Source of the DNA: Halorientalis sp. IM1011
Lineage (GTDB): Archaea; Halobacteriota; Halobacteria; Halobacteriales; Haloarculaceae
Direction: 5' to 3'
Assembly: GCF_001989615.1 (NCBI RefSeq)
Contig: NZ_CP019067.1
Location: 2,852,001-2,916,000, forward strand
DNA: 64,000 nt
Below are positions 9,533-58,060 of the stretch, in pieces (positions within the stretch are counted from its first letter, which is position 1; every line of letters begins with the position of its first letter). A program made the position numbers and the translations under genes. Under the pieces are notes generated by a model. It did not search any database. It was not told the origin of the DNA and was given only the letters and a program-made list of their open reading frames with translations.

Positions 9533-9826
9533 GCGGTAGGGGTGGAATTTGAACCACGGTCGCTCTCGTTCGCTCGCTGACTCGCGGCTTCGCCGCTCGT
9601 CTACCGAGGCGCGATGCGCCTCGCACCGCTCGCTCACATCCCGCTCCCTGATTCAAATCCCACCTGCTGCTCTTCGTCTCGTTTTACTCGACGAAGGAGC
9701 CAGGGGTGGGATATCGAACCGAGTCCAGACGGTCCGGGGTGCTCACTTCGTTCGCTCCCGGGCTGCGACTGGCCGGGTTCAAATCCCACCAGCGGCTCTA
9801 CGTCCTCGTAATACTCGGACGAAAGA
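9533..9826 (-). repeat. tRNA-Thr tail array: mirrored T-arm repeats with cores A and B
   Basis: Downstream of the tRNA 3' end (toward lower coordinates) lie several partial copies of that tRNA's T-arm and acceptor end in alternating orientation. First comes a linker hairpin (stems 9794-9805 and 9817-9829), then an inverted T-arm at 9775-9790. Core B follows (9721-9774), then a direct copy at 9698-9720 that repeats 16 nt of the tRNA end (GAGCCAGGGGTGGGAT on the plus strand). A second linker hairpin (cttcgtc..gacgaag) precedes an inverted T-arm at 9652-9664, core A (9556-9650) and a last direct copy at 9533-9555. Together 9775-9848 forms an almost perfect inverted repeat that includes the 3' part of the tRNA itself. 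No coding function is credible here. Confidence 0.85.
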
Positions 9827-9899
9827 GCCAGGGGTGGGATTTGAACCCACGAACTCCCGATTACAAGTCGGGTGCTTGGACCGCCCAAGCTCCCCTGGC
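9827..9899 (-). tRNA. tRNA-Thr (anticodon TGT)
   Basis: On the minus strand the 73-nt cloverleaf closes with acceptor GCCAGGG/CCCTGGC. The anticodon stem is CCCGA/TCGGG around loop CTTGTAA, and the T-arm is GTGGGTTCAAATCCCAC. The anticodon TGT reads threonine codons. No CCA is encoded and no intron is seen. The T-arm and acceptor sequences recur several times in the tail array at 9533-9826. Confidence 0.95.
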
Positions 9900-16114: not shown

Positions 16115-16399
16115 GCGGTGGGATGGGGATTCGAACCGGAGCCAGACGGTCGCTCACTTCGTTCGCGCTGCGACTGGCAGGGCTCGAATCCCCATGCACC
16201 GCTCTCCGCTCACGTTCGTTCGCGAAGAAGCGGTGGGATGGGGATTCGAACCACGGTCGTTCCCGTTCGTTCGCTGACTCGCGGCTTCGCCGCTCGTCCC
16301 CCGAGGCGCTTCGCGCCTCGCACCGCTCACTCACCTCTCACTCCCTGATTCGAATCCCAACACCGAATTTGCCACTCACGAGTTGTTCGTGGCAAAATA
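16115..16399 (-). repeat. tRNA-Ser tail array: mirrored T-arm repeats with cores A and B
   Basis: This has the same architecture as at tRNA-Thr, with the local tRNA-Ser sequence. Going away from the tRNA 3' end there is a linker hairpin (tttgccac..gtggcaaa, 16367-16397). Next come an inverted T-arm (16347-16362), core A (16253-16346) and a direct T-arm/acceptor copy (16231-16252). A second linker (16202-16230), an inverted copy (16180-16201), core B (16138-16179) and a direct copy (16115-16137) complete the array. Core A closely matches the core A at 9556-9650, and core B shares CCAGACGGT, CTCACTTCGTTCGC and GCTGCGACTGGC with 9721-9774, although the flanks match different tRNAs. Confidence 0.85.
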
Positions 16400-16483
16400 C
16401 GGTGGGATGGGGATTCGAACCCCAGAGTCCGTGAGGACAACTGCTCTCAAGGCAGTCGCGTTAGGCCACTTCGCTATCCCACC
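16400..16483 (-). tRNA. tRNA-Ser (anticodon TGA)
   Basis: On the minus strand an 84-nt class II cloverleaf: acceptor GGTGGGA/TCCCACC, D-arm GCG..CGC, anticodon stem ACTGC/GCAGT with loop CTTGAGA (anticodon TGA), a long variable arm and T-arm TGGGGTTCGAATCCCCA. The discriminator is G, as in other serine tRNAs, and CCA is not encoded. Its T-arm recurs in both orientations in the adjacent tail array. Confidence 0.95.
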
Positions 16484-57644: not shown

Positions 57645-57740
57645 GTGGCGGCCCGAGCGACGGACGCATTGACCACGTGGAAATCGGGCGACGGGGGCGC
57701 ATCCGAAAGGCCCTTATGGGGCTCCGGATAAGGAGGGAGT

Positions 57741-58045
57741 GGACTAGGTCGGGCAGTTAGGCCCTGCCCTGAACCCGCGATATGGTCTTTAGCGGGGACC
57801 GAAGCTCGGGGGCGTCCGGTCAGACGGACGCGGGCCCCGCAAGCCAACGTCGAAGCCTCGTCCTGCGGGGGCGGCGGTCCCCACTGGCTCGCCTGCAGGG
57901 GCGATCCGGTGCGGTTAATCGGGGACACCCCGTCAGGCGCGGAAGCGAGCAGCGGATCCCCGGACACCCGTCGCTCGTAGGGTCGCGGGGTGGAGGAGGC
58001 ACGCGGGATTACCCGCGCCCGAACGCCGGGCAATCCCGAGGTCCA
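57741..58045 (+). ncRNA. ffs: 7S signal recognition particle RNA
   Basis: About 305 nt. The 5' end GGACTAGGTCGGGC pairs with the 3' end CCCGAGGTCC (helix 1). GGGCAGTTAGGCCCTGCCC is the Alu-domain start typical of archaeal SRP RNA. The S-domain core GTCAGGCGCGGAAGCGAGCAGC (57930-57955 region) contains the SRP54-binding GGAAG loop. A TATA-like CTTATGGG at 57711-57718 lies upstream and a T-rich stretch (CGTTTTCTCT, 58061-58070) downstream. The RNA scaffolds SRP19 and SRP54 for membrane targeting. Ends are approximate to a few bases. Confidence 0.93.
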
Positions 58046-58060
58046 TTCCATTCATACCGT

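Follow-up and report, generated by a model that had tools for sequence, protein, structure and literature searches.

Two tRNA genes in the 64,000-nt stretch of Halorientalis sp. IM1011 DNA analyzed here (the window) are each followed by an array of repeats, which raises the question of what kind of element can sit behind different tRNAs and match the local one in each case. The original prediction was of an element family that takes up the 3' end of whichever tRNA it adjoins. Our reading, to which we assign a probability of roughly one half, is that these arrays are built from tRNA-anchored, recombining hairpin cassettes that make up a family of short, non-coding elements in haloarchaea.

The anchors of the two sister arrays, tRNA-Ser(TGA) at 16399/16400-16484 and tRNA-Thr(TGT) at 9825-9899, were placed by ARAGORN and Rfam on the minus strand, where all parts of the arrays lie as well. 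Read 5' to 3' on the tRNA strand, a unit consists of a hairpin (H1, which begins directly after the tRNA), an inverted copy (I) matching mainly the T-loop and T-stem, a core, and a direct copy (D) of the whole tRNA 3' end from the T-loop to the discriminator base. Unit 1 at tRNA-Ser comprises H1 at 16368-16399 (from sequence and folds; stem GCCAC/GTGGC with tandem G.A, C-GA-AC...GT-GA-G), I at 16349-16367 (inverted T-arm/acceptor, TTCGGTGTTGGGATTCGAA), core A of type t2 at 16252-16348 (TCAGGGA...GACCGTG flanking a long hairpin), and D at 16231-16251, a 100% exact copy of the 21-nt tRNA-Ser 3' end at 16400-16420 (GTTCGAATCCCCATCCCACCG). Unit 2 repeats this layout with H1 at 16202-16230, I at 16184-16201 (inverted T-arm/acceptor, CGGTGCATGGGGATTCGA), core B of type t3 at 16137-16183 (CCCTGCCAG...CTGGCTCCG), and a D at 16116-16136 that again reproduces the 21-nt tRNA-Ser 3' end without a mismatch. 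At tRNA-Thr, unit 1 has H1 at 9796-9825, I at 9778-9795 (CCGCTGGTGGGATTTGAA), core B at 9720-9777, and a D at 9698-9719 with one extra base inside the T-loop (GTTCGATATCCCACCCCTGGCT), followed by unit 2 with H1 at 9670-9697 (different from the Ser H1), I at 9652-9669 (CAGCAGGTGGGATTTGAA), core A at 9555-9651, and a decayed D at 9535-9554 (GTTCAAATTCCACCCCTACC). H1 was considered as a kink-turn and rejected on inspection, since the tandem G.A is present and the 3-nt bulge is absent. Only tRNAs and a full-length archaeal SRP RNA gene (57737-58048) reach Rfam gathering scores in the window, and no Rfam family matches the cassettes.

The comparison of the two loci bears out what had been noticed from the letters alone. 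Core A is identical at 85 of 97 positions between 16252-16348 and 9555-9651, the 131-nt repeat family that spans it shows 85% identity between Ser and Thr, and core B is likewise present at both loci (16137-16183 and 9720-9777). The order of the cores away from the tRNA is indeed swapped, with A preceding B at Ser and following it at Thr, and the T-loop in the arms is that of the local tRNA (TTCGAAT for Ser, TTCAAAT for Thr). By inspection, among the positions that differ between the two copies of core A, two form a pair (T-A to C-G, twice), and these paired changes indicate that the copies diverged while their structure was kept. The two-core array thus stands as described, to which the H1 hairpin and further core types have to be added.

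Such arrays are abundant in this 3.78-Mb genome. The surroundings of nearly all its tRNA genes were fetched and 44 loci with a recognizable T-loop were tested, calling a D at 15/21 or more identities to the local tRNA 3' end; at least one D was found at 23 of these 44 loci, with 38 D copies in total. The frequency of D per locus is 0.86 with the locus's own tRNA compared to 0.030 with the 3' ends of other isoacceptors (29x). Because of this local excess, and because none of 200 shuffles folds as well as Ser unit 1, the pattern of the Ser and Thr arrays is beyond chance. Core types were defined from the sequence adjoining the arms: t1 is GTAGACC...GGGCGTG, t2 (core A) and t3 (core B) are those described above, with t3 beginning with either CCCTGGAAG or CCCTGCCAG and ending in TCYG, t4 is CGAGA...GCGTG, and further types exist. 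Units are around 70 to 180 nt long, and the spacing from D to D is 70 to 119 nt in 124 of 146 units. In about one fifth of D copies the T-loop is longer by one base (e.g., TTCAACATCC and TTCACAATCC; in the window at 9698-9719 and further at L105, L106, L114, L118, L119, L133, L140, and L146), and this additional base recurs across tRNAs and genera as though a bulge were selected.

Two other features came up in the survey of tRNA surroundings. A compact cluster of around 30 same-strand tRNA genes, some of them weak-scoring, is devoid of cassettes (L019 734-4717, that is, G000:C1:2240734-2244715) and also occurs in G004:C22 and G005:C4, i.e., in three Halorientalis species; it makes up an unusual second tRNA set, perhaps of viral origin. 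Separately, tRNA-Pro(CGG) on a 120-kb replicon (L058, contig C3; L269 in G004) has a repeated motif behind it, CACACCGRGTTTCCGGTGAAA, whose sequence resembles a Cdc6/Orc1 origin box, so that this tRNA may adjoin a replication origin.

The family extends well beyond this species. The t2 pattern matches at least 120 stretches in named genomes and, among the matches listed, all are haloarchaeal; in a sample of the class, the t2 core is present in 187 of 292 haloarchaeal genomes and in 65 of 77 genera. It was found in none of around 310 genomes of the phylum outside the haloarchaeal class, and the reversed t2 pattern has no match in the class sample among the matches listed. The expectation that the cores are confined to tRNAs holds, with 28 of 30 class-wide sample matches lying at most 200 nt from a same-strand tRNA end. 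Of the two exceptions, L213 keeps an upstream tRNA 3' fragment and L215 does not. Across 80 fetched loci (matches at contig edges left out), nearly all t2 matches start 33 to 80 nt after a same-strand tRNA or lie 1 to 3 units further. Within the genus Halorientalis, a core-only pattern gave the same picture: all matches flanked by T-arms sit behind a tRNA, and the remaining ones have no arms, with a single case among them forming a hairpin (L294); on this basis we rejected the cores as general intergenic repeats. A few units are detached and have only a tRNA or D fragment upstream (L213, L122, and L100), probably owing to later insertions or rearrangements within an array. A second structured element family, CCCACTTTTT...AAAAACGTGGGSGAAAAA...GTGAACCGCG-hairpin-CGCGGATGCT, was seen directly behind tRNAs or D copies (L021 398-535, L026 323-464 on the minus strand, L035 575-770, L055 375-502, L245 435-612, and, by eye, L043).

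It had further been predicted that the flanks co-vary with the host tRNA, and this is what we observe, to different degrees for the two arms. Of 12 positions scored beyond the T-loop, D shares 9.9 with its neighboring tRNA compared to 5.2 with other isoacceptors, and its agreement extends to the discriminator base. The inverted arm agrees at the variable T-loop base in 0.97 of cases against 0.64 for other isoacceptors and at the first T-stem positions in 0.91, 0.81, 0.60, and 0.50 against 0.63, 0.45, 0.25, and 0.36, and then drops to background. We therefore rejected the idea that the inverted copy takes in the entire tRNA 3' end, given that without gaps only T-loop and T-stem match; a gapped test gave a weak added acceptor signal (3.40 vs. 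3.09, sd 0.07). The tracking is also seen at the same tRNA in another species, G002, where tRNA-Ser has the T-arm ATGGGTTCAAATCCCAT and the arms of its unit match it. At positions where D departs from the tRNA, I is complementary to the tRNA 17 times and to D twice, so that I:D pairing is not strictly kept, and U.G pairs stand opposite a host T in 36 of 91 cases. An element family at tRNAs with flanks that track the local one is therefore supported, but the notion that it simply takes up the tRNA 3' end has to be amended, since I follows its host less tightly than D and since H1 and the arms remain in place when a core moves.

The pairing of I with D turns the tRNA-sense strand of a unit into one long hairpin with the core at its tip. 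Folded as RNA, Ser unit 1 reaches -79.6 kcal/mol (z -4.7, 0/200 shuffles as good) and as DNA -40.9 kcal/mol (z -3.9), forming H1 plus this single long I:D hairpin. Among 92 distinct t2 cores the tips are paired over almost their whole length, some in short perfect stems and others in stems interrupted by G.A, and in 44 tips of fixed length 0.94 of cells are standard pairs compared to 0.79 with shuffled partners (maximum 0.83). In a unit-by-unit comparison, folding is better for the sense strand than for the antisense strand in 83 of 84 units. While the cores vary widely in sequence, their pairing is kept on the tRNA-sense strand, and together with the better folding of that strand this points to selection on it, probably in a single-stranded form.

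Which nucleic acid is selected is a more delicate matter. By our own count from the listed cores, the short stems of t2 cores contain 9 G.U and 0 A.C, and this preference for G.U over A.C on the sense strand fails to separate RNA from single-stranded DNA; the mismatch-type test is also confounded by I lagging behind C-to-T changes of the host. Counted with a simple loop finder, on which this argument depends, 81 of 108 apical loops are triloops and 33 of these are GNA, with no GNRA or UNCG loop among those listed. GNA triloops form unusually stable DNA mini-hairpins (PMC4686876), which we take as a moderate hint in favor of DNA over RNA.

Closely related genomes differ in the units and cores of these arrays, which we compared with the congeners G004 and G005 (the latter with sequences matching the Halorientalis regularis loci L140 and L088). 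Arrays differ between species by whole units. At tRNA-Leu(CAA), one unit plus D is present here and G004 has a clean single-copy site with the same downstream sequence (CTGTTGGCCACTACGGCCCCTCGCA), and at tRNA-Lys(CTT), G004 has an extra unit between the tRNA and the shared unit. Set against a CRISPR-like array, in which the repeat is duplicated at each insertion and new units lie beside the leader, the cassettes show D repeats and one tRNA-proximal difference (at Lys-CTT) that could be a gain or a loss alike. The empty sites could also be deletions between direct repeats. At tRNA-Ser(GGA), all three genomes keep H1, I, and the downstream flank, but the core is of type t3 in this genome and G004 and of type t2 in G005; the core is likewise swapped between this genome and G004 at tRNA-Ser(CGA), and units 1 and 3 at tRNA-Lys(TTT) of G004 have identical H1 and I with different cores. 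Counted over 74 units, pairs at different tRNAs share the core without H1 in 85 cases and both in 2, while pairs at the same tRNA of different species share H1 without the core in 27 cases and the reverse in 11. H1 thus belongs to the tRNA locus and the core is the part that travels; only the core passes from one tRNA to another, and H1 and the arms stay put. Cores switch at GAA and GTTC, the T-loop sequence that every tRNA shares.

We propose that a new unit would originate at the tRNA 3' end, which would be duplicated upon gain, and that arrays may lengthen and shorten through recombination between D copies. Cores would be exchanged at the palindrome GATTYGAA/TTCRAATC, the sole sequence common to all tRNA T-loops, via gene conversion, template switching, or a putative recombinase. 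Given that this palindrome is universal, a core could enter an array at any tRNA, and the local arms would be kept because I must pair with D when single-stranded. Single-stranded DNA of a strand-specific mobile or recombining repeat seems to us more likely to be the selected form than a host RNA. No enzyme, circle, or junction was found for the cassettes, which counts against a mobile or recombining element. More tentatively, and at somewhat less than even odds in our estimate, the cassettes could be a new class of mobile hairpins exclusive to tRNA 3' flanks, in which a single-stranded DNA core enters the T-loop palindrome and the local D bounds the unit; bounded in this way, one element could colonize any tRNA and leave it intact. 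SMR-A repeats of Haloquadratum, around 110 bp long, insert inside palindromes by an unknown mode of movement (PMC3119063) and are a precedent for palindrome-targeted small repeats in haloarchaea.

The main rival to recombining cassettes, possible in our view though not probable, is a host function as RNA, with the units being transcribed as tRNA trailers and forming structured RNAs that could serve as tRNA-like substrates of RNase Z or RNase P, as insulators against D-tRNA misfolding, or as regulatory RNAs. The sense orientation, G.U tolerance, and read-through position of the units would suit RNA as well as single-stranded DNA: they occupy the same strand and the immediate 3' position at every tRNA, pair strongly on the sense strand with compensatory changes, and tolerate U.G opposite host T. 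Orthologous units have also been kept at tRNA-Val and tRNA-Trp in several genera of the Natrialbaceae, and such persistence of a core type at a given tRNA in several genera of one family suggests some function. Yet around half of this genome's tRNAs lack a unit, and congeners vary in the presence, number, and core type of units at the same tRNA; the lack of GNRA and UNCG among the listed apical loops and of any Rfam match also speaks against a functional RNA.

Mobile DNA of archaea lands most commonly at tRNA 3' ends. The D copies could be identity blocks left as att scars by tyrosine integrases at tRNA 3' ends, with the units as remnants or mini-elements, and we did find that a direct repeat of the tRNA 3' end bounds the insert and that D, like an att identity block, reaches from the T-loop to the discriminator. 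Archaeal integrases prefer the 3' end of a tRNA as their site and leave that tRNA restored (PMC8371274), and prophage-linked tRNA duplications of 22 and 43 nt are known from Haloquadratum (PMC3119063), both in keeping with such scars. We nevertheless consider this origin unlikely, since it leaves modularity, conserved structure, the inverted arm, and swapped cores unexplained and the units are too short for an integrase gene. A viral or plasmid origin was rejected on the basis of searches in which three core patterns were absent from 2.9 million viral contigs, phage records contained no unit, and plasmids gave weak partial matches only (at most 23% of the query). A neutral by-product of tandem duplication and hairpin-templated repair, giving quasi-palindromes near tRNAs without function or mobility, would fit the three identical 108-nt units in one array of G005 as plain tandem duplication and the frequent GC-rich palindromes of this genome (partial matches) but is very improbable, because repair predicts perfect palindromes and the cassettes have conserved tandem G.A mismatches and unpaired internal loops kept class-wide (NNAG/CGTG and CCCT/TCYG).

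No known family fits the cassettes, and SMR-A comes nearest. Both are haloarchaeal, non-coding, and present in high copy, SMR-A being around 110 bp long with inverted terminal repeats (PMC3119063) and the cassettes having D spacings mostly of 70 to 119 nt with I and D inverted. SMR-A targets IS605-type/PATE palindromes, has near-identical copies, and makes no target duplication, whereas the cassettes target the tRNA 3' end (28/30 behind a same-strand tRNA), have diverse and exchanged cores with arms that match the local tRNA, and close each unit with a duplicate of the tRNA 3' end, which is single-copy at the empty site of tRNA-Leu(CAA) in G004.

The rtT repeats of the Escherichia coli tyrT operon are arranged in tandem behind a tRNA and each contain a copy of its 3' end, as the cassettes do; to our knowledge they are limited to one tRNA in one species group and lack an inverted T-arm, exchangeable cores, and spread over isoacceptors, unlike the cassettes. 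REP/BIME palindromes are short, strand-specific, imperfect intergenic hairpins in many copies that are mobilized by RAYT (Y1) transposases. The cassettes resemble them as strand-specific imperfect hairpins, with core type t1 also beginning with GTAG, though we know of no tie to tRNAs, tRNA copy, or arm co-variation among REP/BIME. Integron attC sites are imperfect hairpins with an outer pairing box, an unpaired spacer, an inner box, and a variable tip, in arrays anchored at one end. The cassettes share the boxed hairpin layout, an inner AAC...GTT, and the one-end anchoring. However, the outer box GTTRRRY of attC is replaced by the tRNA T-arm, across the archaeal chromosome and without cassette genes, and the arms GATTYGAA(C)/GTTCRAATC depart from the R boxes RYYYAAC/GTTRRRY in having C instead of a purine at position 4 of the R box. 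Taken together, for each of SMR-A, att scars, attC sites, and Rfam families, the cassettes lack one or more of the defining features tested. We found no description of such arrays in the open-access literature (subscription literature lay outside the search) and judge the family to be new to the literature.

If the arrays are the work of a core-swapping element that copies tRNA ends, they would represent a new mode of insertion beside essential genes; if they act as RNA instead, they would be a new layer of tRNA trailer RNA. Both readings are testable given that culturable Haloferax species carry units, for example behind tRNA-Glu(CTC) in Hfx. elongans or Hfx. larsenii (L096 and L117). The arrays lend themselves to strain typing as ready markers, and they probably confuse the prediction of att sites and the annotation of tRNA pseudogenes in haloarchaea.
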